NCBI RefSeq assembly: GCF_000015865.1
Contig: NC_009012.1
Span: 1,915,081-1,979,080 of the forward strand
Direction: 5' to 3'
DNA: 64,000 nt
Source: Acetivibrio thermocellus ATCC 27405
GTDB taxonomy: Bacteria > Bacillota > Clostridia > Acetivibrionales > Acetivibrionaceae
Under the pieces are notes generated by a model. The model was not told where the DNA came from. It saw only the letters and a program-made list of their open reading frames with translations, and did not search any database. The position numbers and the translations under genes were made by a program. Positions 36,122 through 51,883 of the stretch are shown here, piece by piece; positions within the stretch are counted from its first letter, which is position 1; every line of letters starts with the position of its first letter.

Positions 36122-36167
36122 ATAACCGCCTCCTTTCGAGTAAAAATTAAAAAATTATAAAAGGCTA

Positions 36168-36217: not shown

Positions 36218-36254
36218 TTTCCTGCTTTTCAAATCCTAAAAAGGAGGACTTAGC

Positions 36255-36928: not shown

Positions 36929-36940
36929 AAGCAGCTTTTT

Positions 36941-36972
36941 AAAGCAGGGATTACAGCCACCCTGCTTTTTTG
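36941..36972 (+). terminator. Terminator of the AbrB/PIN operon
   Basis: AAAGCAGGG and CCCTGCTTT form a perfect 9-bp stem with a 10-base loop and a T-tract. Outer arms AAGCAGC/GCTGCTT extend it. It may also act on the minus strand just after the small tail gene. Confidence 0.7.
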
Positions 36973-36976
36973 CTGC

Positions 36977-37168
36977 TTATATTCCATAAGGTATCACATC
37001 ATCAATGGTCAGCATACGCTTTGGTTTCGCCAGCCCTAAAAACTGCTTATGGCACTCCCATAAATCCAGCAGGTACCCAACAGGCATTAGCCATACTTCA
37101 TCCTCTGAACGATTAAGCTGGACGGTGCCGTAATATAAAAGCCGAGTGAACAATTCCTCATCGCTCAC
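36977..37168 (-). CDS. Small phage protein at the tail assembly chaperone position
   Basis: This is a 63-residue protein starting at GTG that overlaps the previous stop (GTGA). It sits where siphoviruses encode the second tail assembly chaperone (gp15/gpT-like) after the first. The sequence has a helical core (DLWECHKQFLGLAKPKRM). In many phages this frame is reached by ribosomal frameshift; here it has its own start, so the fusion is not needed. The tape measure gene follows after the inserted toxin-antitoxin pair. Confidence 0.6.
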   Translation of the reverse strand: MSDEELFTRLLYYGTVQLNRSEDEVWLMPVGYLLDLWECHKQFLGLAKPKRMLTIDDVIPYGI

Positions 37169-37548
37169 TCGGCCGGTGTGTTTTTTAAATCATCCTCACT
37201 TTCAACATTTCTTTTGGTGCCTTTGAACATCGCTTTCATGATAGCGTCTTTATATGCTGCCAGTTCCAAAGGAGATGTGAGAAGTTCCACTGTCTCTTCG
37301 GTAAGGAGTTCACGCTTATCCTGATGTTTGAGATTGTGTATCAGAATGCTCTGGTTAGCCAGCAGTGTAATCAGCCATACCACTTCGTCAAGAGCCATTT
37401 CGAAGTTCTCGGTTTTCATCAGTTTCGTGCCGAGGTTTTCAAGACCGCCGTACCTTTTTGCAATCTCCTTTGTCGCTTTAGTGGTTAGAATAAGCTGGTA
37501 TTCTTCGCCGCCGATGCTGATGTTTGCGCTTCTGTCCGTATCCTGCAT
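37165..37548 (-). CDS. Phage tail assembly chaperone (gp14-like)
   Basis: This is a 127-residue protein located between the major tail protein and the tape measure. The features DRSANISIGGEEYQLILTTKATKEIAKRYGGLENLG and a long helical C-terminal part match Gram-positive siphovirus tail assembly chaperones. It should coat the tape measure during tail polymerisation. Confidence 0.75.
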   Translation of the reverse strand: MQDTDRSANISIGGEEYQLILTTKATKEIAKRYGGLENLGTKLMKTENFEMALDEVVWLITLLANQSILIHNLKHQDKRELLTEETVELLTSPLELAAYKDAIMKAMFKGTKRNVESEDDLKNTPAE

Positions 37549-37550
37549 TA

Positions 37551-38156
37551 TTAGCTTCCTCCTCCCACAGCAAATACCGGCTCATAAACTTCCGTATACC
37601 AGCCAGCGATAGTTTCAGGCAATACACCGGGATCGTCTTCGCTGACCTCCGCCTTCCAAGGGTGCTTTCCCTGGCCATCTGGTTTGTTACGTCTCATGAC
37701 TGTCCCTTCAATGGTGGGGGTCGAAAAGGTAATGCTGTCACCTTTCGTTTGCAGATTTGTCGCCGGGATTCCGAATTTCACCCTGTAAAGCCAAAAATAC
37801 CTGTACTTGCCGTTAGCTTTCTTGGCTCTAAAGCCAATTGCAACAGGCGCGCCTCCATCCTCGCTGGTGGAAATCAGCACCTTGTTGTCATCAAGGGTGG
37901 CTCCCGTCAAAACCTCAGCAGCGTCTACTCCGATATCTGCAACACCAAGAGTCAGTGTGCCGCTTTGAAATTCCTTGACCACTTCTGCCGCCCCGTCATC
38001 GGCATAAAGCGTCGCCTCTGCCAGCTCCACAGAAAGCTCTGCCGTAATAGCCTTAGCCAGCGGAACAGGCGTGGCGTATGTCTCTTCTCCGTTTTCATTC
38101 TCAGTTATTTTGGCATAATATAACCTGTCCAGTCCGATTGTGGCCATGTTTTTCAT
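37551..38156 (-). CDS. Phage major tail tube protein (phi13 family)
   Basis: This is a 201-residue protein with MATIGLDRLYYAKITENENGEETYATP at the N-terminus, the signature of the phi13-type major tail protein. VRVKFGIPATNLQT-like and DDGAAEVVKEFQSGTLTLGV segments build the tube beta-sandwich. The ATG overlaps the upstream stop. High copy in the virion is expected. Confidence 0.88.
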   Translation of the reverse strand: MKNMATIGLDRLYYAKITENENGEETYATPVPLAKAITAELSVELAEATLYADDGAAEVVKEFQSGTLTLGVADIGVDAAEVLTGATLDDNKVLISTSEDGGAPVAIGFRAKKANGKYRYFWLYRVKFGIPATNLQTKGDSITFSTPTIEGTVMRRNKPDGQGKHPWKAEVSEDDPGVLPETIAGWYTEVYEPVFAVGGGS

Positions 38157-38497
38157 TCCTCCTTTACTTCATATTCTTTTGCCACATCAATGGCATAGTG
38201 GTGATAGCCGGTATCGTCCTCATGGCCTATATACCGCCTGTCGGTAATGGTAAAGCCTGCTTGAAGCAATGTGTTCACTATTTCGTTTTTACGGGCAGTG
38301 TAGTTTCCCTTTATAAATAAAGACAACCTTACCTCCTGGGTTTCTACCTGAGGCTGGTTGTCTGCAAAAACTTCAAATGTATCTGTCATCGGAGTAATGA
38401 CAAGGTACTCATCTGGCGGTACACCGCTAAATACCCCGGTTTCAATGGGGATACCCAAACCATCCAATAACGAGTTTAATTCTGACAATATGCTCAT
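38153..38497 (-). CDS. Phage tail completion / minor capsid protein (gp12-like)
   Basis: This is a 114-residue protein between the HK97-gp10-like gene and the tail tube gene. EYLVITPMTDTFEVFADNQP and VRLSLFIKGNYTARKNEIVNTLLQAGF match tail-terminator-like proteins that cap the tail for joining to the head. It overlaps both neighbours by four bases, which fits a tightly coupled morphogenesis operon. Confidence 0.72.
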   Translation of the reverse strand: MSILSELNSLLDGLGIPIETGVFSGVPPDEYLVITPMTDTFEVFADNQPQVETQEVRLSLFIKGNYTARKNEIVNTLLQAGFTITDRRYIGHEDDTGYHHYAIDVAKEYEVKEE

Positions 38498-38925
38498 ATA
38501 CGACCCAGCTCCTGTTCCAGTCTTGACTTCATTACTTCGATGCAGGACTTCCTTGTAGCTGATTTTGCCGGTTTCAAAAAGGGCCTTGGAGGCTGCCCGG
38601 ACTTGCCATACTCAATAATATTAGCAATCTTCGCATTGCTTTCCCCATCCTTCCTTGGTTCAGTAAAGCCGATTTTTATGTTGTGGTTTCCATCCCTGTC
38701 CTGCTTGGCAGGAGAAAGTCCCAAAGCATTTACCAATTCACCGGTTGCTCTGGACGGATATTTAGTGCCGCTCCCGATAACTGACTGAAGATTGGACTTT
38801 ACTTTTGAAAGAACCACTTCCCCGCCTGCTTCCAGCACCTTAGGTATGATTTCGTCTGTTCTTTCTCCAAGTCTGGATAACTTGAGCAAGAACTGTTCCG
38901 GCATTTTAACTTCCACCTTAGCCAC
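38494..38925 (-). CDS. HK97 gp10-family phage protein
   Basis: This is a 143-residue protein with the HK97-gp10 pattern: a helical N-terminus (PEQFLLKLSRLGERTDEIIPKVLEAGGEVV) and the region IANIIEYGKSGQPPRPFLKPA. It acts in head-tail joining or tail completion. The start is a GTG preceded by AAAGGAGGGG. Confidence 0.83.
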   Translation of the reverse strand: MAKVEVKMPEQFLLKLSRLGERTDEIIPKVLEAGGEVVLSKVKSNLQSVIGSGTKYPSRATGELVNALGLSPAKQDRDGNHNIKIGFTEPRKDGESNAKIANIIEYGKSGQPPRPFLKPAKSATRKSCIEVMKSRLEQELGRI

Positions 38926-38941
38926 GTTGCAGCCCCTCCTT

Positions 38942-39277
38942 TTATGCTTTGCTTGATTTCACCTTTTCCGCAAGCACCTCAATATACATTCCACGTCCTT
39001 TTACATCCTCAACACTTATAATGTTGTACCTGCCATCGCTGCAAACGAGTACAAGATCTGTGGTAATTTCAAGGTTAGGTATCTTACGGAAGCGGAACAG
39101 GGCAGACGCCTGCGAAAACGCCGCCCTGTTTGCCCATTTTTCACTGCCATGCCTATCTTCCTTGTATGCTCTTACCGAAGCAAGAATGACATCACCTTTT
39201 TCAGTAAAACCCTCACTATCCTTAACCGGCTTGACTGAGATAATGTCCACGAAAGTTTTCATTTTCCCAAGGCCCAT
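38942..39277 (-). CDS. Phage head-tail adaptor (stopper)
   Basis: This is a 111-residue protein with the H_T_join pattern: KTFVDIISVKPVKDSEGF, then ANRAAFSQASALFRFRKI and VCSDGRYNIISVEDVKGRGMYIEV. It plugs the connector and attaches the tail. The ATG with GGAAGGTG upstream is preferred over a TTG five codons earlier. Confidence 0.8.
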   Translation of the reverse strand: MGLGKMKTFVDIISVKPVKDSEGFTEKGDVILASVRAYKEDRHGSEKWANRAAFSQASALFRFRKIPNLEITTDLVLVCSDGRYNIISVEDVKGRGMYIEVLAEKVKSSKA

Positions 39278-39279
39278 AT

Positions 39280-39588
39280 TTACACCTTCCAATCCCGGTC
39301 AAGCCGCAGCAATAGATTAACTGTATTCCATACCTGCTGTCCTGCCTGCACACTATCCCCAAAAAAGCCAGCAGTCGAGCCATCCCTGCTTTCATAAAAA
39401 TGGCTCGACAGCATAATGACAGCCTGCTCAGTAGTAGGCGGCATGGGGTTTTCAGCATAATATCCTTCCGGCTTTTTCTGGTAACTTTCCGCATAGGCCA
39501 CTGCGGCTTTGATATACTCTTGTAAAAGTGCGTCATCTTCGCTGTGCTGCAATATGAGGTTTGCTTTAACCTTCTCCAAAAGTTCCAT
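39280..39588 (-). CDS. Phage gp6-like head-tail connector protein
   Basis: This is a 102-residue helical protein (LLQEYIKAAVAYAESYQKKP ... TTEQAVIMLSSHFYESRDG ... VNLLLRLDRDW) typical of the gp6/gp15 connector family that binds below the portal. It lies directly after the capsid gene. A longer overlapping frame (39222-39665) has no such match. Confidence 0.83.
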   Translation of the reverse strand: MELLEKVKANLILQHSEDDALLQEYIKAAVAYAESYQKKPEGYYAENPMPPTTEQAVIMLSSHFYESRDGSTAGFFGDSVQAGQQVWNTVNLLLRLDRDWKV

Positions 39589-39609
39589 GCCGCAGCACCT
39601 CCGTTTTCA

Positions 39610-40812
39610 TTAAGTTGATTTCTGCTGCAGTATCTTGACTGCTTCAGACAGTACCAGCTTGCCATCTACACGCTGGGTTGCCATGAATCCAACTTGTCCG
39701 GTCGCAGCATACAACTCATTAAGCCGCTTAAAAACCCTGCCTTGACGGTCTGCCACCCAGTAATAAGAAAAATCGCCGAATACAATCGTTTTTGCTCCGG
39801 CGGCAATGGCTGGCATAAATGCAGAAGTTTTAACTGGACGATTGAGGATAGTATCCGGTGTTCCAGCAGTTACAGAAGGCTGCCAGAGATACTGACCGTT
39901 GTTGTCTTTGAGCTTCCTTATAGCTTTAATTGTCGAATCATTCATAATGAATACAGCGTTCCTGCGGTACGGAGACTTTAGGCTGTAGAACAAGTCCATG
40001 ATCTCGTCAAGGGTAATGGCTGTTGCACTCGCCGCGGTTACTCCTATCTCGCCACCGCCGTTATCCGCCAAGATACCGGTTGGCTTGCCAGATCCGTCGC
40101 CGATAAAAAATGCTTCCTCCTCTTTTGCTCCGATTCGGCGGGCGAATTCTTTGGCTATATACTGTTCAAGGTTAAATACACTGTCGTTTAACAATTCCTC
40201 TGACACCTTGATCATAGTAGCCAGCTTATATGCGCCGATGGATACCTGTGCAAAGGAGTCATCGCTTTCGGGAATCTGGCCTTCCTCATCCACCCAGGAT
40301 GCAGTACCCTTGCTTGCCACCACAGGAATTTTCTTGTCACCGCTGGACGTGGTAATAACATTGGCAATCTGCCTAAAGATATTCTCCTCCTCCAGTGCTT
40401 CCACAAGAGTACGCTCAAAGTCGTCGGGAACAAGATATCCACCTTCGGTGTCCTCTCCAATCTGCAGCGCGTTGTGTACGTCATATTTGCGCCTGCCGCG
40501 CATCATGTTCCAGAAAGACTGCCTGTACTCATCGCTGGCACGTCCGGTTTTTTCATTGTTGCCAGATATGGAAGTGGGTTTGTCTGTAATAGGAATATTC
40601 AACGGTTTTGACAGTTCCAAATCTATGGCAGCCTGACGCTCAAGACGCTCTATTTCTTTGCCCAGCGCAATAACGTCGGCTTCCATTTTTTCATAAGTTG
40701 CGGTATCCTCCGGTGAAAGCAGTCCGTCGTTCCCGCGTTTGCTGTCGAGGAAAGCTTTAGCAGCTTCCCCTACTTTCGCGCGTTTTTCACGCAGTTCCAG
40801 TATTTTGCTCAT
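39610..40812 (-). CDS. HK97-family major capsid protein
   Basis: This is a 400-residue coat protein. The N-terminal about 100 residues are a coiled-coil delta domain (LELREKRAKVGEAAKAFLDS) removed by the protease. The HK97 fold follows, with GGYLVPDDFERTLVEALEEEN, IKVSEELLNDSVFNLEQYIAKEF and GDFSYYWVADRQGRVFKRLNE. The ATG with AGGAGG eight bases upstream is chosen over a TTG two codons upstream. Cross-linking Lys/Asn cannot be judged without a structure. Confidence 0.93.
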   Translation of the reverse strand: MSKILELREKRAKVGEAAKAFLDSKRGNDGLLSPEDTATYEKMEADVIALGKEIERLERQAAIDLELSKPLNIPITDKPTSISGNNEKTGRASDEYRQSFWNMMRGRRKYDVHNALQIGEDTEGGYLVPDDFERTLVEALEEENIFRQIANVITTSSGDKKIPVVASKGTASWVDEEGQIPESDDSFAQVSIGAYKLATMIKVSEELLNDSVFNLEQYIAKEFARRIGAKEEEAFFIGDGSGKPTGILADNGGGEIGVTAASATAITLDEIMDLFYSLKSPYRRNAVFIMNDSTIKAIRKLKDNNGQYLWQPSVTAGTPDTILNRPVKTSAFMPAIAAGAKTIVFGDFSYYWVADRQGRVFKRLNELYAATGQVGFMATQRVDGKLVLSEAVKILQQKST

Positions 40813-40862
40813 AATCAAATCCTCCTTAAGGTTTTATTTGGGGTCCCCGCTAAATCGTAGAT

Positions 40863-41591
40863 TTAGTGGGGTAAAAGTAGAAAAAGCCGCTTTTCAAGCG
40901 ACTCAATTGGTGTTCCTTTTGGTTTTTCTTTTGGTTTAAGCTTTTGCAGGATGGAATTTGTTACTGCCTGCCTGCTGAAGATCATTCCTCCTGATACTTC
41001 AAACTCGGATGGGAATGATTCATCCTCCATAAACAAGATTCCATCAGCAAAGCCAAGTTCCACCGCTTTTCTTGCGTTAAACCAGCTTTCTGCATCCATT
41101 AGGTGCGATATTTTTGCCCTGGAAAGTCCGGTTTTCAGCTCATAAGCGTTGATGATGGATTCCTTTATTTCTTCCAGCATTGCGATAGCTTTCTCCATTT
41201 CTTCTGTATCACCGATGGCTATTGTCATAGGGTTGTGAATCATCATCATGCTGACTGGTGACATAAAGACGTCACCTCCGGCCATAGCTATGACCGAAGC
41301 GGCGCTGGCTGCAATACCGTCAATCTTTACCGTCACTTTGCCTTTGTAATCCATAAGCATGTTGTAAATTTGATTAGCTGCAAATATATCTCCGCCAGGG
41401 CTGTTGATCCAGATCGTTATATCACCCTCTCCGGACAACAGCTCTGATTTGAACTGTTTGGGAGTTACTTCGTCTCCCAGCCAGCTTTCTTCAGCTATTG
41501 GGCCGTCAATATATAATGTCCGGCTGCCATCATCGTTTTGTATCCAGTTCCAGAAGCGGCGAACCGGTTTTTGTTTTTGTGATTTGTTCAA
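40863..41591 (-). CDS. Phage head maturation protease, ClpP-like
   Basis: This is a serine protease of the ClpP/S14 fold, 242 residues from a TTG start preceded by CGGAGGG with eight-base spacing inside the portal gene; an upstream ATG at 41648 is less well placed. Catalytic residues: the Ser in IAASAASVIAMAG (about 90-102) and the His in MMMIHNPMTIAIG (about 110-122), with the Asp near LSRAKISHLMDAE. WINSPGGDIFAANQIYNML is the oxyanion/handle region. It removes the capsid delta domain and the portal scaffold. Confidence 0.9.
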   Translation of the reverse strand: MNKSQKQKPVRRFWNWIQNDDGSRTLYIDGPIAEESWLGDEVTPKQFKSELLSGEGDITIWINSPGGDIFAANQIYNMLMDYKGKVTVKIDGIAASAASVIAMAGGDVFMSPVSMMMIHNPMTIAIGDTEEMEKAIAMLEEIKESIINAYELKTGLSRAKISHLMDAESWFNARKAVELGFADGILFMEDESFPSEFEVSGGMIFSRQAVTNSILQKLKPKEKPKGTPIESLEKRLFLLLPH

Positions 41592-42852
41592 CTTTTGATC
41601 CCTCCGTTTCAGCATTGTTTTTGCCTGCAAATGTACCTGCATCGGCAAGCCTGGTCATGTTACCGTTAACAAGATACAGATCTCCGCCCAACTCCGCCGG
41701 AATCCGGTTCATGTCCTCAAGCTCGCGGATATCGTTAGCAGACATCCAGCCGTTCTGGCGAGCTACAGCATAACCATTCATGCGGCTTGCATAATCACCG
41801 CGCAGAAGGCCATCTACATTGAATTTGACAAAGTATGCCCGCTTCTCTGATGGTAAAAGCAGCGCTTTTTGGAGAGCCTGTTCCCAACGCACCACCCACG
41901 GGTCAAGCGTGTATTTAACAAATTCCAGAGATTGCTGTTCGATGTTTGAAAAGCTTGACTTTTCAAGATCTCCAACCATATGGGGAGGTACTCGGAATAT
42001 CCGGGCAATTTCGTTTATCTGGAACTTTCTTGTCTCCAAAAACTGTGCCTGTTCGGGTGGAATGCCGATTGGCTGAAACTTCATTCCCTCTTCCAGGACT
42101 GCAATACGGTGAGCATTGGCACTTCCTTGATAAACAGCGTTCCAGCTTTCACGCACCTTTGCCGGATCCTTTAATACGCCGGGATGTTCCAGAACGCCAC
42201 CCGGATTTGCTCCGTTGGCAAAAAAGGATGCACCATACTCCTCACAGGCAATAGCCATGCCTATGGCATTCTTGGCCATAGCAATAGGGGAGTATCCGAT
42301 CAGTCCGTCAAAACCGAGTCCCGGGATGTGAAGAACCTCATCACTTCGTAGGTATATAAGGCCTGCTTTTGGATTAACCCTGCTCTCATCGCTGTCGCGC
42401 CGATAAGTGTAATACAGCTCTCCGTTTGGAGCCCTGTCTACCGTCATTTTGTTTGGCAAAAGGGGATAAAGCGCCAGCACTCGCCCGGAACCGTCCCTGA
42501 CAATCTGGGCATAAGCATTTCCCCATAAAAGAAGATGACTCATCAGTGTTTCTCGGAACACAAATGAAGTCATCTCAGGGTTTGGTTCGTCATGGAGCAA
42601 ATAATAGAGCGGGTGGGTCAACGCTTTTTCTTTGCCACCGTCTTCCTTGTATCGGTATACATGAAGCGGAAGCCCGGCGATGGCTTCTGCAAGTATCCTT
42701 ACACAGGCATACACTGCAGTTGTCTGCATAGCAGTCCGCTCATTGACAGCTTTTCCGCTGGATGTGCCGCCGAAGAAAAAGCTATATGCATTACCGAACA
42801 GGCTGTTTTTCGGCTTGTCCCTTGCTTTGAACAAGCGGGAAAATATTCTCAT
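41530..42852 (-). CDS. Phage portal protein, HK97 type
   Basis: This is a 440-residue portal subunit (SPP1/HK97-like phage portal). Conserved segments: TAVYACVRILAEAIAGLPLH, TSFVFRETLMSHLLLWGNAYA, GLIGYSPIAMAKNAIGMA and NEIARIFRVPPHMVGD. The start is ATGAGAATATTT with AGGAG just upstream, shorter than the longest possible frame. The 3' end overlaps the protease start, as in HK97-like phages. Confidence 0.92.
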   Translation of the reverse strand: MRIFSRLFKARDKPKNSLFGNAYSFFFGGTSSGKAVNERTAMQTTAVYACVRILAEAIAGLPLHVYRYKEDGGKEKALTHPLYYLLHDEPNPEMTSFVFRETLMSHLLLWGNAYAQIVRDGSGRVLALYPLLPNKMTVDRAPNGELYYTYRRDSDESRVNPKAGLIYLRSDEVLHIPGLGFDGLIGYSPIAMAKNAIGMAIACEEYGASFFANGANPGGVLEHPGVLKDPAKVRESWNAVYQGSANAHRIAVLEEGMKFQPIGIPPEQAQFLETRKFQINEIARIFRVPPHMVGDLEKSSFSNIEQQSLEFVKYTLDPWVVRWEQALQKALLLPSEKRAYFVKFNVDGLLRGDYASRMNGYAVARQNGWMSANDIRELEDMNRIPAELGGDLYLVNGNMTRLADAGTFAGKNNAETEGSKVEQITKTKTGSPLLELDTKR

Positions 42853-42878
42853 AAGCATCACTCCTAAAAATGGGCATG

Positions 42879-42902
42879 AAAAAAGCACCACATTTGTGGA
42901 GC
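42879..42902 (-). terminator. Intrinsic terminator after the AIPR gene
   Basis: On the minus strand GC-T-CCACA and TGTGG-T-GC form a stem around AA, followed by TTTTTTCATG. It separates the defence gene from the portal gene and helps define the moron as its own transcription unit. Confidence 0.6.
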
Positions 42903-42928
42903 TTCTTTACATTTTTATATTTTATTGA

Positions 42929-44713
42929 TTAACTTCTTATTAACTTATCCTTATTTTGTAGTAAAATATCTGTTGTTTCTTTCCGTTCAAACAATTTACG
43001 ATCCGTCAAATCTAATTCTTTTTGTGTTTCAATGAATTCAATTATTCTTAAAAAATAATCGAGACATTTCCCTGAATCATTCAAGATACGCAAAATTTGA
43101 TTGCAAGCATTGATCATTTTTTTGGCACTATGATGTTTTGGTAAGTTGTTTGTTGCCATATACTTTAAAAGCATTATGGCATGATACTTTCCTTTACGGT
43201 ATTTTTTATCAATACATTTTGTTTTTATCAGGTTTTCGAAACGAAACATGGCCAAAGAACTTGTGTAATACAATATAGGCTGGTCGTCAGGTAGAAAAAT
43301 ACGGTTTCCAATATCTTTCAATAAGCTACTATAATGACCAGCAGCGTCGTGTGGTTTATCATTGAACATTGATGATGCATTTTTTAACTGGGCACGAATA
43401 GTAACTATTCGATCTTTGGGAATCGATTCATTCCTATATTGTCCTGAACGACGTTCATAATACAAGCGTTCATCCTCAGCAGTGTATGTGCGATAGTATT
43501 CCTCCAGTGTTTTTTGGAAAGTTGATAACGCTTCTAATTGTTCTTTGGTTATACCAGTTTGATTATTTGTAGCTTTTGTAATACGGTTTTTTAAGTCCTC
43601 ATCCTTGGTTACAATAATCTTAATCGGTATAAGTAAATCATGTATTCCAAGATTATCACGGTTAAGATACAAAACATGGCTGGTTTGGCATCCATTAACT
43701 ATCTGATAGTTTGAAATTGTCATCTTATCGCTCACAAGCACAGCAGAATGAGCGACAATTGTTATTCCATTATTTAGCATGCAAAAAGCGCTATTTCTGC
43801 CTTCAACAATAGTTTCTTCAATGTCCGCATTAACATAATTATTCACTCCAAGGAAGTCCCGAATATTATCTTCAAATACTTTTTTTAGTGAACCATTTTC
43901 ATCGCATATAATTTTATAAAATTCGCAGAATGGCAGTACCCCACTATATCCATAATCTCCATTATCATCAGAAAACATCATCACATTTTTTGTAAAAACA
44001 AAAGTCGCTTCTATTTGCTCTTGTGATTTTCTATACATACGCTGTATTTCTTGGGCACCGCAAGGTATAAATTCCACAGATGAAAAAAGTGCCATGTTAT
44101 TAAGCGTATCTATATGACTATTAATTACAGCTTTCAAATTGGAATCATCATCGTTCCACTTCCCCGGAGCAATATAATAAAGTCGTATTATCGGGTTTTT
44201 GACTTTCATATAGCGAGAATTACTATAAATAAAATCCTTCATTTCTATGAAGTCTGCCATTTCCTCTGTACTGAATGTATTCTTAGCTTCATCAGAAAAA
44301 AAGACTTTAACAAAAGACAAAAAGTTACTTATCTCTGAATTATCAAAACTGTCAGATGTTTTTGCTTGTACAAATATAAATTTTACATCAAGTTTTTTAT
44401 TTTGCTTAATTAACGTTTCTATCTCATCAATACTGCACACAATAGCTCCGTTTACTTCTATCGCTATTCCATCAATACCTTGAGTAGCATTGCCAGTATG
44501 CATGTCTTGAATATCTATTTCAACCATGCCAGTTTCTGCAGATAAAGCACAGAAATTGGCAAAATGCTCGAATTGAACACTTGTTTCGTACATAGTAAAA
44601 TTATGGCTAATAGAAAATTCATCTAAAAAAGCCTGAGTTATACGATCCAAAGTTACTCCTCCGATAATAATCTTATTTGGAGGAATTATAACACGTTTTG
44701 TCAAAAAATTCAA
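42929..44713 (-). CDS. AIPR-family abortive infection protein (phage-encoded moron)
   Basis: This is a 594-residue protein with the AIPR core: EGRNSAFCMLNNGITIVA (about 304-321) and the hallmark ISNYQIVNGCQTSHVLYLN (about 333-351). AIPR proteins confer abortive infection against other phages. The N-terminal third has an IDGIAIEVNGA ... KFIFVQAK pattern (Asp81, Gln116, Lys118) that resembles a PD-(D/E)xK nuclease core. The TTG start has GAGGAGTG upstream. The gene is flanked by a terminator and an AT-rich upstream gap, sits between terminase and portal and has more AT-rich codon use. All three points indicate a horizontally acquired cargo gene. Confidence 0.8.
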   Translation of the reverse strand: MNFLTKRVIIPPNKIIIGGVTLDRITQAFLDEFSISHNFTMYETSVQFEHFANFCALSAETGMVEIDIQDMHTGNATQGIDGIAIEVNGAIVCSIDEIETLIKQNKKLDVKFIFVQAKTSDSFDNSEISNFLSFVKVFFSDEAKNTFSTEEMADFIEMKDFIYSNSRYMKVKNPIIRLYYIAPGKWNDDDSNLKAVINSHIDTLNNMALFSSVEFIPCGAQEIQRMYRKSQEQIEATFVFTKNVMMFSDDNGDYGYSGVLPFCEFYKIICDENGSLKKVFEDNIRDFLGVNNYVNADIEETIVEGRNSAFCMLNNGITIVAHSAVLVSDKMTISNYQIVNGCQTSHVLYLNRDNLGIHDLLIPIKIIVTKDEDLKNRITKATNNQTGITKEQLEALSTFQKTLEEYYRTYTAEDERLYYERRSGQYRNESIPKDRIVTIRAQLKNASSMFNDKPHDAAGHYSSLLKDIGNRIFLPDDQPILYYTSSLAMFRFENLIKTKCIDKKYRKGKYHAIMLLKYMATNNLPKHHSAKKMINACNQILRILNDSGKCLDYFLRIIEFIETQKELDLTDRKLFERKETTDILLQNKDKLIRS

Positions 44714-44786
44714 TTACTTCACTCCTCGAGTGTTTTTTAATTAAGGACTTATATAAGATATTATGCTCACTTATGATATATTTTGT

Positions 44787-46354
44787 TTATAAAAATAAAA
44801 TTCCCCTTTCATCATAAATTGATCCGTTGCGTTCATCCCCGTCATGCCTTAACGCGCGGTCAAGCGCCATAATTAACGCTACCGCGCCATCTATTCTCTC
44901 GGTGGATTTTTCTTTATCAGGCTTTATGTTTCCAGCTGGATCAGTTTTGACATAGATATTGTCCATCATCCAGCGCAGTACTGGATGGCCACCATGGGCG
45001 ATGCGTTCTTCCAATGTCAGCTTCATCAACTCTTTTGTAGGCGGCGACATATCTTTGAAACCCTGGCCGAACGGAACAACCGTAAAGCCCAAGGCCTCGA
45101 GGTTTTGCGTCATCTGAATTGCTCCCCAGCGGTCAAAGGCTATTTCCTTAATGTTATATTTCATCCCGAGCTCCTCAATAAAAGTCTCGATAAAACCGTA
45201 ATGCACGACGTTACCCTCAGTGGTATATAAAAAGCCCTGCCGCTCCCAGACATCATAAGGTACGTGATCTCTCCGCACACGCTGATCGATATTCTCCTCC
45301 GGTATCCAGAAAAAAGTCAGTATCTGATATTTGTCCGATTCATCAAGCGGCGGAAACACCAGTACAAATGCAGTAATATCGGTAGTAGATGACAGGTCAA
45401 GTCCTCCGTAACAGGTTCTGCCGCGCAATTTTTCCGCATCAACAGGAAACGCACACTTATCCCATTTATCCATTGGCATCCAGCGCACCGATTGTTTCAC
45501 CCACTGATTTAAGCGGAGCTGACGGAATAAATTTTCCTCTGCGGGGTTTTGCTTGGCATTTTCACAAGCCACCCTCAGTTTTTCGATGTCGACTGTAATG
45601 CCTAGTGACGGATTAACCTTTCTCCATACCTTTTCACTTGTCCAGTCGTCGGTATCGGATGCGCTGTAGATAACAGGGTAGAAAGTCGGATCTATCTTAC
45701 GTCCCTGCAGAATATCCTCTGCCTTTTGATGCACTTCCCAGCAGATGGAATTGCGGTCTGTGCCAGCAGTTGTGATCAGGAAAAACAGCGGTTGTTTTCT
45801 TGCATCGCCAGATCCGTGAAGCATTACATCATAAAGATCCCTGTTTGGCTGAGCATGAAGTTCGTCAAATACCACACCATGGACGTTTAGGCCATGTTTC
45901 GTATATGCCTCCGCTGAAAGCACCTGATAAAAACTGCCTAACGGTTTATAAACCAGCCGCTTCTGTGACAGCATTGGTTTAATTCGAGATTTTAATGCCG
46001 GACACTGTTCCACCATATCTACTGCAACGTCGAAAACAATGGATGCCTGCTGACGATCAGACGCACATCCATAAACCTCGCCACCATGCTCGAAATCACC
46101 ACAGGTAAGATATAAAGCAATTGCCGCTGCAAGTTCGCTCTTACCCTGCTTTTTGGGATTTCTATATAGGCAGTGTTAAACTGCCGGTATCCGTTAGGTT
46201 TCAAGATTCCGAATATGTCCCGGACAATCTGTTCCTGCCAGTCAATTAATTCAAAAGGCATTCCATACCATTCACCCTTGGTATGCTTCAGGCAGTTTAT
46301 AAAAGTAACAGCGGCATCCGCCGCTTCCTTGTCATATCGAGAACCTTCCGCCAT
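44787..46354 (-). pseudogene. terL: Terminase large subunit, frameshifted at Walker A
   Basis: The N-terminal frame (46019-46354) reads AEGSRYDKEAADAAVTFINC ... YIEIPK and then loses homology. The downstream frame (44787 to the A-run) is open from the same point and reads KKQGKSELAAAIALYLTC, continuing into the ATPase and nuclease domains (VEQCPALKSRIK, FDELHAQPNRDLYDVM, GGLDLSSTTDITAF). One extra A in an A5 run joins them and restores the Walker A lysine. Without it no packaging motor is made. An ATG at 46354 is the first canonical start, but similarity-like codons continue upstream to about 46,400. Confidence 0.85.
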
Positions 46355-46422
46355 AAACTTGGTTGGTTTATATCGTTTTAACTTCCGCAGCTTTGCCGCC
46401 TCCTTTCCTAAAATTGAGCAAG

Positions 46423-46450
46423 AAAAAAGGAACCTCAGGGATGAAGTTCC
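46423..46450 (-). terminator. Intrinsic terminator upstream of the large terminase
   Basis: GGAAC and GTTCC arms around a CA-rich loop are followed by TTTTTTCTTG on the minus strand. It lies between the DUF5049 gene and terL and may reduce read-through of the preceding cassette. Confidence 0.5.
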
Positions 46451-46492
46451 TCTCGTTAGTGGATTTCTATGAAGCCTGTTACGTTATTACTG

Positions 46493-46687
46493 TTATCGTT
46501 TGCCTGTCAGGATAAACTCGGCATATTCTTTTTTGTGTTCATTTAGAAAGACCACCAATTCATAATAACCCTTTTTGTATGCCTCCTCCTGCACTCTTGG
46601 CAAATCAAACATATTGCAGACACCGCTGTCCCGTATGACAATTATCTGCCGGTAAATCTTATCAGTTATCAGATTTTCTATACCCAT
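46493..46687 (-). CDS. DUF5049-like small phage protein
   Basis: This is a 64-residue helical protein (TDKIYRQIIVIRDSGVCNMFDL ... EEAYKKGYYELVVFLNEHKKEYAEFIL) that matches the small DUF5049 proteins found beside terminases in Firmicutes prophages. It follows the GGCT gene with four bases between. Function is unknown. Confidence 0.72.
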   Translation of the reverse strand: MGIENLITDKIYRQIIVIRDSGVCNMFDLPRVQEEAYKKGYYELVVFLNEHKKEYAEFILTGKR

Positions 46688-46690
46688 GTC

Positions 46691-47158
46691 CTACACCTCA
46701 GACTTCTCTGCCGCTGAAATTGAATCTCTTACCGCTTTATTGAGAACTGAAATATCAAAGCCCGCGTCTATATATCCGTGCCGAATCACCTCGTAATAGT
46801 AACGACCCGGTGCTCCCAGTGGTCTGCCTTCATTCATGATATACACCATTGCGGGTACCCACTGCCCTTTGAAACGTACCTTAACTGTTTCTTTCCGGTA
46901 TAGATGCGGATAACCTTCATATCTGTCCAGCGCTTTCTCATCATTAGGCATGATTCTCCAAAGCAGTACTGGTACTCTTTCACCTTTTTGTTTTTCTATT
47001 GTCGCTACTGCGCCGCCATTCCCTCCTCTGAATAACAGCCGGTATCCTGTGAGTTTTGCACTCCCCAGCACTTTTGCCGTCGGGCAGCGGTATGCCATCT
47101 GCCTTAAGTTCAGATTGCTTCCGTATGCTAAATATATGGTTCCTTTTTCTTTGCTCAT
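46691..47158 (-). CDS. Gamma-glutamylcyclotransferase-fold (GGCT/AIG2-like) protein
   Basis: This is a 155-residue protein with the GGCT substrate-binding loop TIYLAYGSNLNLRQM (about 7-21) and the likely catalytic Glu in DRYEGYPHLYRKE (about 78-90). Phage GGCT proteins are often encoded with amidoligases and are thought to cut or reshape gamma-glutamyl amide bonds made by them. It lies directly downstream of the amidoligase gene, separated by a GC-rich hairpin. Confidence 0.87.
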   Translation of the reverse strand: MSKEKGTIYLAYGSNLNLRQMAYRCPTAKVLGSAKLTGYRLLFRGGNGGAVATIEKQKGERVPVLLWRIMPNDEKALDRYEGYPHLYRKETVKVRFKGQWVPAMVYIMNEGRPLGAPGRYYYEVIRHGYIDAGFDISVLNKAVRDSISAAEKSEV

Positions 47159-47185
47159 CGTATCATCCTCCTTGTATTTACCAAG

Positions 47186-47209
47186 GCAGGGGCGGAGATC
47201 CGCCCCTGC
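47186..47209. other. GC-rich hairpin between amidoligase and GGCT genes
   Basis: GCAGGGGCGG and CCGCCCCTGC form a perfect 10-bp stem around AGAT. It has no T-tract on either strand, so it is not a simple terminator. It may stabilise or process the cassette transcript. Confidence 0.4.
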
Positions 47210-47219
47210 GCTTGTCTAT

Positions 47220-48119
47220 CTATGCCGCCCGAAACCGCCATGCCGCGTTGCCGCCCAAGTGTTTGCAAAGGTGCTCCCGACAATTTTTGAACTCATCACC
47301 AATAAGTCCTATGCGGTTGAGATATGTCCGCATGGCAAACTTCTCGTTCTCGACCTGCGGCTTTTTGCTGGAAGCGCATTTTTGCGTCAGCGCCTGATGG
47401 TTGAGCGCCAAGGCAAGGACGATGTAGCTCCTTATTATCCCGGCGTGGAGTTCGCTGTTGAAGCCGCGAAGCTCGATCGTACCGTTGCCGTTGAAAAAGC
47501 TGTGCAGATTGAGAAAATAGTACCGACTTCCATGATATCGCTGGCTGCGGCTTTCGCTGTAACCCTCATACCAGATGCTCTCAATCGCCGCCATGGTTTT
47601 GGGCTTACGCCGATTCATCTTCTCAACCAGTGCCGCATCCATCTTTTTACAAAACCGCATCCTGTCCGGCTCAATCTGCAATGCTTTATAGAAAAGGTCA
47701 TTCTTGCTGGCGATAATATTGATAAAATTGCGGATGCTTCGAGGCGTGTGGTCTGCCCCGTCTATATGGATATGGATCCCACAGCTTGTGTTTGCAAAAC
47801 CTCCCGCCTTGCGAAGCCTCCTTACCAATTCCTGCAGGGTTTCAATGTCCTCGCGGTATGTCAGTATCGGACTTACCAACTCGACGCTATATTCCCGGCC
47901 AGCCGCCGCAATCCGGCCGTTTTCCTTTTTCTGAGTCCGAATGCTCCCGTCGCTCATGAATTTCCATATCCGTCCATCCGGTGCAATAACCTTTTGGGTA
48001 TCGTAATAATCTCCGCTGGATTCAATCCTCCCTCCAAGAAAAGCTGCTGCAGTTTTTGCCGCCTGTTTTCTTGTAATCCCCGTCAATTCTACCTCGATTC
48101 CAAATCTCGTTGTAAGCAT
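47220..48119 (-). CDS. Amidoligase-family protein (ATP-dependent carboxylate-amine ligase)
   Basis: This is a 299-residue member of the amidoligase_2 family. The ATP/Mg signature is RFGIEVELTG (about 5-14, Glu9/Glu11). EYSVELVSP (about 77-84), TSCGIHIHIDGAD (about 111-123) and TIELRGFNSELH match the glutamine-synthetase-like catalytic fold. It probably links an amino group to a carboxylate, perhaps on a peptide or protein. The start is the ATG with GAGGAG upstream; a longer frame lacks such a site. The last 55 residues match those of the upstream neighbour. Confidence 0.85.
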   Translation of the reverse strand: MLTTRFGIEVELTGITRKQAAKTAAAFLGGRIESSGDYYDTQKVIAPDGRIWKFMSDGSIRTQKKENGRIAAAGREYSVELVSPILTYREDIETLQELVRRLRKAGGFANTSCGIHIHIDGADHTPRSIRNFINIIASKNDLFYKALQIEPDRMRFCKKMDAALVEKMNRRKPKTMAAIESIWYEGYSESRSQRYHGSRYYFLNLHSFFNGNGTIELRGFNSELHAGIIRSYIVLALALNHQALTQKCASSKKPQVENEKFAMRTYLNRIGLIGDEFKNCREHLCKHLGGNAAWRFRAA

Positions 48120-48260
48120 TGCGCTTTCTCCTCGCTTTCTCTGTGTTTTTTGCCCTTTGGCAGTGTACATTAGGCCATTGAAAACACAGGATAGCAAGGC
48201 AATTCTGCATGAGTTTCCGCTGGATTTTGGACAATTTTACATATCTTGATTTGTGTACAT

Positions 48261-48491
48261 TTACAGCTTTCTGATCACATCTATACCATAGGCTGCACCC
48301 AGAGAAGAACCGCAGTCCCAGTTGATATGAACGGTTCCGATATCATCCACGAAAGATACTGTTCCTTGGTCTCCCGGTTTCAGCTTAGAATACGGATCAT
48401 CCATGCAGATAAGTTCAACGCGTGTTCCCGGTGGATACTGCTCTTTAAGGCGAAGGACTGTTTCTTTTGAAGGAAAGCCTCTTGCACTCAT
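48261..48491 (-). CDS. DUF4314-domain protein
   Basis: This is a 76-residue protein with the DUF4314 pattern: RLKEQYPPGTRVELICMDDP, KPGDQGTVSFVDDIGTVHINWD and GSSLGAAYGIDVIR. DUF4314 proteins are beta-barrel-like and common in Firmicutes phage and ICE cassettes; their role is unknown. The start is the ATG with AGGAGG seven bases upstream. It overlaps none of its neighbours. Confidence 0.8.
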   Translation of the reverse strand: MSARGFPSKETVLRLKEQYPPGTRVELICMDDPYSKLKPGDQGTVSFVDDIGTVHINWDCGSSLGAAYGIDVIRKL

Positions 48492-48516
48492 AGTCCGTCC
48501 TCCTCTCCAGGATAAA

Positions 48517-49209
48517 TCATTCATTTTCGTCCACCGCCTTTGCTCTGCCTTTCCGATACGCCCCGTTACCGGACAGCCTTGAAAGTAACACCTTGCGTTC
48601 AGTTTTGAAGTTATCACCTATAAACCCCAACCTAAGCAGGAAACAGCGAAAAGCATATTTTTCATTATCTGTTGGTTTTTCTTTTCGTAGTACTCGCTTC
48701 TGTAATTTTGCCTGTTCTGCCATCTGCTTTGCCAGCGTTATATAGGTCTGCACTTCATCAGCATTTAAAGTCGCGTTCCAGAAAGGAAAGGAAATCTCAT
48801 CATTTTCAGCTAAGACTACAAGTTCCCCCTCAATCAACATTGCCTTCTTTATCAATGTCTCTTTGCTGGCCAGCATATTATTTAGGTTTTCAAGGCTAAT
48901 CTCGCTAAAGCCCTCCAACGAAAGAGTAATTGTCATGGTTTCCTCTGCTGAAAAACCCTCCACATTCAACGCGTCAATAACTGAACGGATGGTTTTTATT
49001 TCATTGAGACTGATTTTCGGTGAGTGAACCACACTGTCCCTGTCAATCGTCCAACTGCCAGCAGATTTTTCGTCTTTAATCTCATACAAAAACTCCGGTG
49101 CTCCGGCATAGCGCACCTGGCCTTCAAGGGCTTCAGCTATGACCGAGGCAATGGCTTTTCTCTCCTGACCGACAATCTTCTGTGAAAAGCGAAAGCTGTT
49201 ATTGCTCAT
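48517..49209 (-). CDS. Degenerate amidoligase paralogue (predicted inactive)
   Basis: This is a 230-residue protein collinear with the amidoligase encoded downstream. Matching blocks are LENLNNMLASKETLIKKAML (against IRNFINIIASKNDLFYKALQ) and, at the end, TDNEKYAFRCFLLRLGFIGD (against VENEKFAMRTYLNRIGLIGD). The catalytic blocks are changed: FGIEVEL becomes FRFSQKI and the HIHID core becomes ITLSLEG, so no metal/ATP Glu or His pair remains. It is probably a regulatory or structural partner (pseudoenzyme) of the active paralogue. ATG with GGGAGG upstream is preferred to a GTG three codons earlier. Confidence 0.7.
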   Translation of the reverse strand: MSNNSFRFSQKIVGQERKAIASVIAEALEGQVRYAGAPEFLYEIKDEKSAGSWTIDRDSVVHSPKISLNEIKTIRSVIDALNVEGFSAEETMTITLSLEGFSEISLENLNNMLASKETLIKKAMLIEGELVVLAENDEISFPFWNATLNADEVQTYITLAKQMAEQAKLQKRVLRKEKPTDNEKYAFRCFLLRLGFIGDNFKTERKVLLSRLSGNGAYRKGRAKAVDENE

Positions 49210-49251
49210 GCCATACACCTCCCCTCAAATAAGCTAAAACATTTTTGATTC

Positions 49252-49285
49252 CCATAAAAAATCCCACCTTTCCTTTTTGGTGGGG
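49252..49285 (-). terminator. Intrinsic terminator after the methyltransferase genes
   Basis: CCCACC (49263-49268) and GGTGGG (49279-49284) form a stem followed on the minus strand by ATTTTTTATGGG. Outer arms CCCCTCAAA/TTTTGAGGGG extend the fold. It marks the end of the methylase transcription unit. Confidence 0.6.
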
Positions 49286-49325
49286 TACATTAACGCTCTG
49301 TTTTGAGGGGAAAGCAAGGACATTT

Positions 49326-50579
49326 TTAATCAATCTGTGTTTCCGCGTAAGGTATTTTTTCACTACCTGTTACCAAGAATACTGAATCTGCGCCAAATTG
49401 TGAAACATAGCGCTTTACAATCACATCGCAGTATTTCGGGTCAAGCTCCATCATAAAACAAACCCGCCCGGTCTGCTGTGCCGCAATCATTGTCGTACCA
49501 GAACCACCGAACAGGTCAAGAGTTAAATCTCCAATATGGGAACTATTGAGCATTGCCTTTGCTACAAGCGATACCGGCTTCATGGTAGGGTGCTCCTCCG
49601 ATACTTTAGGACGGGGTATCTCCCAAACATCTGACTGTTTACGGTCTTTAAGCGGGCAAAGGCGTGTTCCTTCAAGCCAACCGTACCAGATCGGCTCGTA
49701 CTGGGTATGATAGTCCTTTCTTGACAGTACCAAGCTGTCTTTTTTCCATATAATTGTGCTCGACCAGTGATACCCTGCCTCCCGCATGACGTTCATCAAA
49801 CTGCCCCATTCCTGAGCACTCATTACTATATAGGTCATGCATCCGGCTTCAGAAACCTCTTTCATGCATTTAAAAGCGCGCAATAAAAAAGCGCCGAATT
49901 CTTCGGTGCTCATATTGTCATTTAGAATTTGTCTTGGCTTCCAGCTTGGATGCCTGGTATCTGAACCGTAATCAACATTCCAGGGTGGGTCGGTGAAAAC
50001 AAATCTCGCCTTTTGTCCGTTCATCAGCTTTTGCACATCTGAAAGCATGGTGCTATCACCGCACATCAGACGGTGGCTGCCAAGCACCCATATGTCGCCC
50101 TTTTTAGTGACCGGAGTTTCAATCTCTGCAATTGCCTTTTCTGTATCGAAATTATCCTCTTTGACATTAGCGGTTGTTTTATCACGGAACAACTCATCAA
50201 TTTCCGCAGCATCAAACCCGGTAAGAGAAACGTCAAAACCATCTTCATTTAAATCCATAAGCAGATCGGTCAAAAGCGGAATATCAAACTCGCCACTGAT
50301 TTTATTCAGTGCAACATTGAGCGCCTTTTCCCGCTGTTCATCCAAATCAACTACAACACAGTCGATCTCCTTATACCCCAAAGCTGTAAGTACTTTATAA
50401 CGCTGATGTCCGCCGACAATGTTCCCGGTGCGTTTATTCCATATAACCGGCTCTACATATCCAAACTCTTCAATAGACCGACGTAATTTTTCATATTCAG
50501 GGTCACCAGGCTTTAAATCTTTCCGCGGATTATATTTAGATGGTTTTAGTTTTTCTGTTGGTATTTTCAGTATATCCAT
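49326..50579 (-). CDS. ParB-domain DNA methyltransferase, DPPW class
   Basis: This is a 417-residue fusion. An N-terminal ParB-like domain (about 1-110, IVGGHQRYKVLTALG) is joined to an N6/N4 amino-methyltransferase with motif IV VFTDPPWNVDYG (about 195-206) before the SAM motif LDLFGGSGTTMIAAQQTG (about 355-372), that is, beta-class order. DPPW suggests N6-adenine methylation. It follows its paralogue by five bases. Such phage methylases protect the genome from host restriction; no restriction partner is seen. The ParB part may set DNA contact or processivity. Confidence 0.88.
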   Translation of the reverse strand: MDILKIPTEKLKPSKYNPRKDLKPGDPEYEKLRRSIEEFGYVEPVIWNKRTGNIVGGHQRYKVLTALGYKEIDCVVVDLDEQREKALNVALNKISGEFDIPLLTDLLMDLNEDGFDVSLTGFDAAEIDELFRDKTTANVKEDNFDTEKAIAEIETPVTKKGDIWVLGSHRLMCGDSTMLSDVQKLMNGQKARFVFTDPPWNVDYGSDTRHPSWKPRQILNDNMSTEEFGAFLLRAFKCMKEVSEAGCMTYIVMSAQEWGSLMNVMREAGYHWSSTIIWKKDSLVLSRKDYHTQYEPIWYGWLEGTRLCPLKDRKQSDVWEIPRPKVSEEHPTMKPVSLVAKAMLNSSHIGDLTLDLFGGSGTTMIAAQQTGRVCFMMELDPKYCDVIVKRYVSQFGADSVFLVTGSEKIPYAETQID

Positions 50580-50584
50580 AAATC

Positions 50585-51883
50585 TTAACCCTCCAGTTTG
50601 ATGGCTTTTTCGCCGGTGAATTCCTCCCAGCGCTTAACAGCTAAATCACAGTAAACAGGGGATAACTCCATTGCGTAGCATTTACGCTCGGTCTGTTCAG
50701 CCGCAATTATAGTAGTTCCGCTACCAGAGAACGGCTCAAGCACAATACCGCCTTTGTCGCTGTGCATTTTGATGCACCGCCATGGAAGCTCCACAGGGAA
50801 CATTGCAGGATGCTCCTTGTTTGCCCGTACAGTGGTCATCTCCCATATCCCAGCATAACCCCATTTCTTGCGTTCTTCCTTTGTAAGCCGTTTCACAAAT
50901 TTATAACTGTGTCCCGCAAAGGCTGAAAGCCATACATATTCCTGATCGTTATATTCCTCAACTTCTCCTTTATTGCTGAAGGCCGAAATATACTCATACT
51001 GCTGAACCGGCTTGTTTGAAACAAGATGATAGGGTCCTACACCAAAGTTCTGCCCCTGCTTCTTCCAAATACGGATCCAGATAGGTCGATAGCCATTGTC
51101 CAAAAACATATTCACGCTGTACACGCTGGTTGGTTCAATAAACTGGGAGCCGGTTGCATATAAATCACCTAAGTTCCAGCAGACAATATCTGCATACCTG
51201 CATAAGTTTCTAATCACTGGGCGTACTGTCTCGAACCATGGCTCAATCCCGGCTTTTTCATATTCTTTGCCTACCCCATAAGGCGGGGAAGTCACTGCCA
51301 TCTGTGCGTGACACCCTTCCATCAACTTCTCAAAATCCTCATTCTTCGTAGAGTCGCCGCACATCAAGCGATGATTCCCGAGAAGCCAGATATCGCCCCG
51401 CTTCGTTACCGGCTCGCGCTGCACGATTTCCTCATGCGCTTTATCTATGTCAAAGCTGTCTTGTACCGCCTCTTTGGAGTACCATCGGTTAAGTAGTTCG
51501 TCTATTTCAGAGGCGTCAAACCCTGTAAGCGAAACATCAAATGCACCTGCGTCCAACTCAGCCATCAGTTCGGCCAGTTTATTCTCGTCCCACTCTCCTT
51601 GAATCTTATTGAGAGCAAGATTAAGCGCTTTTTCTCTCTGCGGGTCAAGATCCACTACAACGCAGTCTATCTCAGTCTGTCCCAAGTCCAGCAAAACCTT
51701 TAAGCGTTGATGCCCGCCTACCACATTACCTGTTTTTTGGTTCCAGATAACAGGCTCCACATAGCCAAATTCCTCTATTGACCGTTTTAGCTTTTCATAT
51801 TCCTTATCGCCAGGTTTTAAATCCTTGCGCGGGTTGTATGCTGCTGGATTAAGTTTTTCAACAGATATTTTTTGTATGTTCAT
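50585..51883 (-). CDS. ParB-domain DNA methyltransferase, SPPY class
   Basis: This is a 432-residue paralogue of the next gene. Its ParB-like N-terminus is nearly identical in layout (NPRKDLKPGDKEYEKLKR, VVGGHQRLKVLLDLG). The methyltransferase has motif IV AVTSPPYGVGKEY and motif I LEPFSGSGTTIIAAEQT. SPPY is typical of N4-cytosine enzymes, so the pair may modify different bases. The gene overlaps a small upstream gene by 26 bp. Confidence 0.88.
   Translation of the reverse strand: MNIQKISVEKLNPAAYNPRKDLKPGDKEYEKLKRSIEEFGYVEPVIWNQKTGNVVGGHQRLKVLLDLGQTEIDCVVVDLDPQREKALNLALNKIQGEWDENKLAELMAELDAGAFDVSLTGFDASEIDELLNRWYSKEAVQDSFDIDKAHEEIVQREPVTKRGDIWLLGNHRLMCGDSTKNEDFEKLMEGCHAQMAVTSPPYGVGKEYEKAGIEPWFETVRPVIRNLCRYADIVCWNLGDLYATGSQFIEPTSVYSVNMFLDNGYRPIWIRIWKKQGQNFGVGPYHLVSNKPVQQYEYISAFSNKGEVEEYNDQEYVWLSAFAGHSYKFVKRLTKEERKKWGYAGIWEMTTVRANKEHPAMFPVELPWRCIKMHSDKGGIVLEPFSGSGTTIIAAEQTERKCYAMELSPVYCDLAVKRWEEFTGEKAIKLEG

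Follow-up and report, generated by a model that had tools for sequence, protein, structure and literature searches.

Our analysis of a 64,000-nucleotide stretch of the Acetivibrio thermocellus ATCC 27405 genome (contig NC_009012.1; hereafter the window) indicates that the prophage located there probably carries a moron encoding an AIPR/AbiU-type defence nuclease, placed between terL and the portal gene in a recurrent accessory slot. The gene, read from its likely TTG start, spans 42929..44650 on the minus strand and would encode an AIPR/AbiU-like protein of 573 aa (594 aa if read from the TTG at 44713). The moron assignment is well supported by comparison with related phages, on account of the empty sites of near-identical phages, the contrast in G+C, the conserved layout of the start, the terminators and the large gaps specific to this junction. 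A defence function is likely, given the match to AbiU, the moron class of the matching PHROG and the presence of defence genes among the other cargo of the slot.

Bounded by the conserved parts of terL and of the portal gene, the insert as a whole occupies 42854..44802 (minus strand), measures 1.95 kb and has 32% G+C, compared with 46% in the surrounding prophage. Its edges were read from blastn comparisons with relatives, in which similarity on the terL side ended at 44803 and restarted on the portal side at 42853 (L015, L096, L246, L247 and L248); for L017, L095 and L097 the portal side restarted at 42860. Two of these IMG/VR relatives, L015 and L095, lack the insert, and both of their flanks match the window at 95-97% identity. 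Similarly, the prophages of three host genomes from other genera (G006, G009 and G015), with 98-99% protein identity in the portal and 95-98% DNA identity in the slot flanks, all (3/3) have an empty, overlapping terL-portal junction, and the sequence ATGA serves as both portal start and terL stop in insert-free relatives. Because this empty junction is found in near-identical phages, the AIPR gene was probably gained recently, and its distribution suggests gain in the window rather than loss in the relatives. Other relatives carry something else in the same place, namely a different 0.5-kb cargo in L016 (93-95% identical) and another cargo in L098 (84-85% identical). An earlier reading made from the letters alone (the sequence-only reading) had described the gene as splitting an otherwise tightly coupled packaging-head operon in the manner of a moron. 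Both points held, since the nearest relatives have the overlapping terL stop and portal start and no insert, and what lies between these genes, adjacent in relatives, is a self-contained unit with a promoter-like site, a ribosome site and a terminator. The gene had further been described as standing alone; this is correct for its own insert, whereas the implied one-off insertion has to give way to a junction that repeatedly receives cargo.

The junction was surveyed in relatives collected by portal and terL scans. These were limited to the best 80 of 597 and of 600 confirmed matches, respectively, and the slot frequencies therefore apply to near relatives. From 170 loci, 140 had both genes in order, and 115 distinct ones remained after removal of 23 duplicates and then of L004 and L066. 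The gap between terL and portal exceeded 200 bp in 58 of the 115 loci and 400 bp in 55, it measured 1-110 bp in 39, and it was missing in 18 (17 overlaps and the doubtful L114, whose gap of -278 reflects either faulty alignment or a broken locus). L003 and L005 had been fetched via AIPR itself, and when these two loci are left aside, 56 of 113 exceeded 200 bp. The next junctions rarely exceeded 400 bp (portal-protease 2/101, protease-capsid 1/87), and the large gaps are specific to the terL-portal junction. As for the host genomes, 17 regions were read, 16 of which had terL upstream, and 9 of these 16 had more than 200 bp in between. The principal cargo of the 59 occupied slots, the window included, fell into 52 clusters, with L003, L005 and the window forming the AIPR cluster. 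AIPR was thus seen in the slot of relatives only where AIPR itself had been used to fetch the locus (L003 and L005), and it was found in none of the 113 loci fetched by portal or terL and in none of the 16 host-genome junctions. Hence the possibility, raised in the sequence-only reading as one that would speak against a moron, that phages always carry this gene here as a structural gene does not agree with the data. With variable cargo between two conserved genes and PADLOC matches among this cargo, the junction has the make-up of an accessory or defence hotspot. Named relatives, whose portal was 72-79% identical in the records read, include members of Ca. Heliusvirales (e.g. PV036453), Erysipelothrix phage phi1605 and Streptococcus phage phi1207.3. 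The annotation of 11 such phages (eight labelled Ca. Heliusvirales, phi1605, phi1207.3 and further NatCom records of the same label) places clear genes between terL and portal in six, only a 34-aa open reading frame (ORF) in one and nothing in four. They thus resemble the window in having extra genes in the slot and differ from it in holding other cargo, a small ORF or nothing.

Concerning the start of the gene, a promoter scan located a promoter-like site, TTGAAT-17-TATAAT with an extended -10 (TGn), at 44685..44713 (minus strand). It is the only 10/12 promoter match among the 30 sites of at least 9/12 in 36000-52000 and hence the best site in 16 kb. A ribosome-binding site, GGAGGAG, follows at 44656..44662 (minus strand), 5 nt before the likely TTG start. 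In L002 and L003, whose proteins are about 50% identical to that of the window, the -35, the 17-nt spacer, the TGn -10, an AGGAGG and a GTG start occur in the same order. Moreover, the homologues in L192, L178 and L195 start at the residue encoded by TTG 44650 (MDLIT, MDKIT), and others have an in-frame ATG there (MDRIT, MHRIV). The likely start was placed at TTG 44650, behind the extended -10 and GGAGGAG, because homologues begin at that residue and because the order of promoter and ribosome site is kept in L002 and L003. A TTG start with a strong ribosome site had been proposed previously, and of this the ribosome site stands. The TTG at 44713, where the 594-codon open frame of the window's ORF list (42929-44713, minus strand) begins, was set aside, as it is the first base of the -35 hexamer and the starts of the homologues favour 44650. 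A longer protein may nevertheless be made; L002, L003 and L005 also have upstream in-frame starts. The upstream gap is indeed AT-rich, as had been stated, with 27% G+C in 44651-44786. The proposed intrinsic terminator of the cargo gene was likewise recovered, as a hairpin with a T-run at 42879..42904 (minus strand). Its 22-nt hairpin has -9.5 kcal/mol and a slightly longer stretch -12.4 kcal/mol, and terminators with similar arms occupy the same position in other slots. The region-wide terminator scan omits this hairpin on account of a stem mismatch.

The far edge of the insert proved to be shared among slots with different cargo. A slot terminator was defined as a forward hairpin of -8 kcal/mol or lower with at least 5 T in 8, within 120 nt before the portal gene, and it was found in 42 of 47 slots with co-directional cargo, in 2 of 12 with opposite cargo and in 54 of 654 random windows (Fisher p 2.6e-6). 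Counted by cargo cluster, with one mixed cluster left out, the figures were 37/42 for co-directional versus 1/9 for opposite cargo (p 1.6e-5). Conversely, a reverse terminator after terL occurred in 4/12 slots with opposite and 2/47 with co-directional cargo. Among the nine occupied host-genome slots, inspected by eye only, the terminator edge was present in seven of the eight with co-directional cargo (L252 is without it). Hairpins in the 1-110-bp gaps (23/39 at a looser -5 kcal/mol) were excluded as slot terminators because, in the rows inspected, they fall in the terL 3' end. Next to the terminator, at 42861..42878 (minus strand), stands the linker CATGCCCATTTTT with a ribosome site, common to slots with other cargo; the motif CYCATTTT stands before the portal gene in 20/47 slots whose cargo is co-directional, in 1/12 with opposite cargo and in 1/57 junctions that are short or empty. 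The 24-base edge was found in 20 IMG/VR stretches, in 18 of which it lies 37-45 nt before the portal gene; the remaining two are L267, which has no portal match, and L273, which has an odd partial one. With a looser edge pattern, 17 matches lay before portal; another 11 did not, eight of these being located, by distance, just before terL. These eight include the one in the window, a second terminator-linker-ribosome-site module at 46405..46454 (minus strand) that resembles the slot edge; the other three (L003, L116 and L144) are placed elsewhere. Swapping of cargo by recombination in the shared flanks appears to be the simplest account.

The assignment to the AIPR family, also part of the sequence-only reading, rests on three profile matches of the AIPR frame. 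Pfam AIPR (PF10592) gave 162-165 bits against a cut-off of 25 over model positions 1-298/308, PADLOC AbiU gave 398.6 bits over positions 3-530/537, which is nearly the full model, and PHROG 1841 ('Abi alpha-like abortive infection mechanism', category moron) gave a full-length match of 273.7 bits. Profile matches on both sides also confirmed the position between terL and portal. At E <= 0.001 the frame is the sole AIPR match in the 3.84-Mb genome, and at E <= 1e-5 relatives were present in 7 of 59 other genomes, none of which belongs to the same genus or family.

The predicted structure suggests how the protein may act. In an alignment of 28 homologues, E28, D60 and Q95 were conserved in 28/28 and K97 in 27/28, and a QIVNGCQT stretch was invariant. 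The conserved acidic residues and the Q95-K97 pair agree with the (D/E/Q)xK pattern expected of PD-(D/E)xK nucleases. A QAK motif is carried by MspJI-family enzymes. AlphaFold2 with the 28-sequence alignment gave a model with a predicted local distance difference test score (pLDDT) of 88.5 and a predicted template modelling score (pTM) of 0.80. Based on this model and the conserved residues, the N-terminal domain (residues 2-213; 44012..44647, minus strand) is a predicted PD-(D/E)xK nuclease. In VIA-align, these residues matched MspJI at Z 9.3 (133 residues, 3.7 A) and FokI at Z 9.1 (140 residues, 3.3 A), with the Hachiman HamAB entry (Z 6.6) and LmuA (Z 5.8) further down; restriction or nicking endonucleases fill the top seven rows, unrelated folds set in at about Z 5, and scores below 8 can reflect common arrangements. 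The middle domain (residues ~222-367; 43550..43987, minus strand), part of the Pfam AIPR region, resembles the ParB/Noc N domain with a middling score, residues 222-367 matching seven ParB and Noc chains at Z 5.5-6.6. The C-terminal helical domain (residues ~368-568; 42947..43549, minus strand) is weakly SspE-like (Z 4.8 to 6jiv). A Foldseek search against viral models returned three hits at E <= 0.001, of which one bears the name AIPR protein and the others are uncharacterised, and searching the PDB with a profile of four sequences gave nothing significant (one hit at E 0.48). A 2012 paper, available to us in part, proposed a HEPN RNase for the AIPR N-terminus (PMC3506569). No HEPN chain was among the 50 VIA-align matches listed, and our model points to a PD-(D/E)xK nuclease at the AIPR N-terminus, with a HEPN RNase less probable but conceivable. 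For AIPR proteins it thus offers a PD-(D/E)xK and a ParB-like domain instead, and it names residues for mutation.

With respect to what else the slot holds, 72 cargo proteins were aligned, of which 20 were scanned singly with PADLOC and 30 with Pfam; the rest were part of bulk scans in which matches cannot be assigned to members. The most conspicuous defence matches were Lamassu LmuA and LmuB (L058), an NsnA/PD-T4-2/GmrSD-like protein (L160), SoFic (L168) and AbiD (L122), and feebler matches were obtained for DrmC/PLD (L033, weak) and BrxP/PAPS-reductase (L059, partial). Further cargo included a leucine-rich repeat protein (L087), an HNH protein (L036), a sigma-region-4 protein (L053) and DUF3800 proteins (L030, L044 and L146). 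One slot cargo of the bulk scan, its member not located, matched lincosamide nucleotidyltransferase models, and a putative aminoglycoside nucleotidyltransferase is annotated between terL and portal in phi1605 (L284, 4351-4845); the slot, to judge from these annotations, can also carry resistance-like genes. In the G011 prophage (L256), two opposite-strand slot genes resemble, by eye, a multidrug-type membrane transporter and a MarR-like regulator. Two slot cargo proteins (members not assigned) matched NCBIfam MzaE, in a scan that left out the AIPR protein of the window.

Taken together, an own promoter would drive the AIPR gene in the dormant prophage, and its protein would stay inactive until another phage infects the cell. 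The ParB-like/AIPR domain would then sense or bind a nucleotide, DNA or a phage product, and the N-terminal PD-(D/E)xK domain would cut DNA, so that the invader is stopped or the cell is killed. The nuclease step is proposed on the grounds of the structure model, the MspJI and FokI matches, the invariant E, D and Q and the near-invariant K. As the terminator lies directly before portal, late transcription must pass it; on induction this could happen through antitermination or leak, allowing the head genes to be reached.

Several observations weigh against a defence moron of this kind. Promoter-like sites in 36000-52000 are no commoner than in shuffled sequences (30 vs 28.2), so it is the position of the site and its conservation that speak for an own promoter. 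Hairpins resembling terminators are not confined to the slot, since 39 of 87 loci have one before the capsid gene, which makes the contrast between cargo orientations the stronger evidence; in L256 the cargo is opposite and yet, by eye, a terminator edge stands before portal. With regard to the function of the cargo, only seven of the 20 proteins singly scanned with PADLOC matched a model at 1e-5, two of them weakly or in part, and the other 13 did not. Non-defence cargo is also present, including a flavorubredoxin-like protein (L158), PAS-GGDEF (L056), SfLAP (L075), PAPS reductase and transposases (L133 and L046). Because defence and non-defence genes are mixed in this way, the junction is best described, as far as annotation can tell, as an accessory slot with a defence component and not as a pure defence island. 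A second AbiU gene was absent beside the AIPR gene among ORFs of at least 60 aa. Regarding the structure, Foldseek against the PDB returned no match at E <= 0.001, for which reason the endonuclease-like fold rests on one aligner, and a model built from four sequences (pLDDT 47) was discarded.

Different explanations were also considered. It is unlikely, in our opinion, that the gene protects against plasmids or phage satellites, or regulates late genes through the terminator before portal, instead of excluding phages. Such roles would suit the mixed cargo, and a terminator ahead of the head genes could lower their expression; however, the part of the literature available (PMC3506569) and the profile matches assign relatives of AbiU and AIPR to phage defence, and the terminator follows the orientation of the cargo, as expected of a cargo end. 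Even less probable is a selfish nuclease of the homing type, which would cut the terL-portal junction where it is empty and have its gene copied there, the lysogen gaining nothing. The predicted nuclease, the exact insertion at one junction and the HNH gene in the slot of L036 would fit this account, but the same slot holds 52 cargo clusters that include non-nuclease enzymes and regulators, the cargo comes with a promoter-like site and a terminator, and the homologues of phages Fels-2 and Thyatira reside at other sites. Furthermore, of 58 AIPR-related loci, 53 with an AIPR match, only L003, L005, L180 and L184 also had terL and portal, a count in which the 50% identical gene of L180 and L184, both prophage records, is one and the same and in which a distant portal would escape notice, many AIPR loci being short.

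The state of terL has a bearing on a further possibility. This gene (44787..46354, minus strand) is read in two frames, 46019-46354 and 44787-46016, the break being in its N-terminal part, where five close relatives are intact. Since terL is frame-broken, the prophage of the window may be unable to package as sequenced, unless the assembly is in error. One could therefore regard the prophage as a decaying, defective remnant and the AIPR gene as passive baggage, the break being found in the window copy and in 0/5 of the relatives compared. Nevertheless, the AIPR frame is open throughout with its conserved motifs intact, long open matches were likewise obtained for the portal, the protease, the tape measure and two tail genes, and a homopolymer sequencing error would look alike. 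We consider this account very improbable, to about the same degree as homing, and retain the view that the gene is a prophage moron for defence.

A broader and more tentative proposal, which we would not yet favour, is that the terL-portal junction of Ca. Heliusvirales-related phages is a general cassette-exchange slot in which cargo units are swapped without harming the head operon. The conserved terminator-linker-ribosome-site edge would allow one cargo transcription unit to be exchanged by recombination. Considering that the edge module also occurs before terL and at a few other places, these phages would need processive antitermination of late transcription, and the slot thus raises the question of how transcription passes the terminator before portal. 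A terminator-like hairpin is also found in the window before the capsid gene (40884-40904), hinting at read-through or at some part in late expression. If the cassette slot is real, AIPR would be just one defence cargo among many, and co-directional cargo that is as yet uncharacterised would represent good candidates for new defence systems. The slot is recognisable in metagenomic contigs and collects short autonomous genes, and it may therefore permit a simple harvest of candidate defence genes.

In the window, the order on the minus strand is terL, the AIPR gene, portal, Clp protease, a capsid-sized gene and tail genes. The portal gene occupies 41530..42852 (minus strand; PF04860, 452 bits). 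Upstream of terL, 46691-49218 holds a GGACT and two amidoligase-like genes, and an amidoligase and a gamma-glutamyl cyclotransferase are annotated likewise in several Heliusvirales records; two consecutive ParB-domain DNA methyltransferase genes follow at 49326-51883. A second portal gene, 40% identical and probably of another prophage, was detected about 85 kb off in the same genome (G000:C1:2041836-2042906).

AIPR morons and prophage defence hotspots are already known kinds, and AIPR in phages is not new; the gene described here adds a further, well-documented copy to an established class. Our literature search, which opened a minority of the papers listed and had the Heliusvirales description and the AbiU paper outside its reach, recognised no publication describing the terL-portal slot. 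The protein resembles AbiU (AbiU1) of Lactococcus lactis (PF10592) in its near-full hidden Markov model match and in being a single large protein. The L. lactis system consists of abiU1 and abiU2, according to the accessible part of its source (PMC3985639), whereas the window has one gene in a prophage slot. No two-gene layout was seen in the insert, its other ORFs of at least 60 aa lying on the opposite strand, over the AIPR gene or the portal end, and shorter partners were not searched. Membership in MZA, where AIPR belongs to an mzaABCDE operon, was not indicated either, the scanned neighbours being terL, portal, Clp protease, GGACT, amidoligases and a DNA methylase. The predicted folds are shared with MspJI/FokI-type nucleases and with the ParB/Noc N domain, and the domain order is different. 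PADLOC 'AbiU' has also been found together with prophage integrases in Salmonella Typhimurium, as stated in the accessible part of that report (PMC9958689).

Among phages, gp38 of Mycobacterium phage Thyatira (PHROG 1841) shares the full-length match and the moron class, but it is located two genes before the integrase, outside the head operon. The AIPR gene of Fels-2 is 31% identical over 95% of the query and belongs to an accessory locus adjoining the portal gene gpQ; it differs in that Fels-2 is P2-like and in that the gene occupies another locus, between gpA and gpQ, on the strand opposite to portal. In L197 (885-5862), a 43% identical AIPR relative adjoins SIR2-like and HerA-like genes, with an HNH-like gene further on, by eye. 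The gpA-gpQ site coincides with the defence hotspot described for P2 (Rousset et al., 2022; PMC9122126, available in part), which, along with the SIR2- and HerA-like neighbours in L197, argues for the defence reading. AIPR also appears in the abbreviation list of the P4-hotspot figure of that article. The slot of the window resembles those hotspots as a small, defence-rich locus of high turnover between conserved phage genes. The hotspots covered by the accessible text (P2 (cos), P4, Vibrio cI-integrase and Bacillus near integrase) are at positions other than terL-portal, while the present slot lies within the terL-portal operon and is bounded by a conserved terminator-linker-ribosome-site edge.

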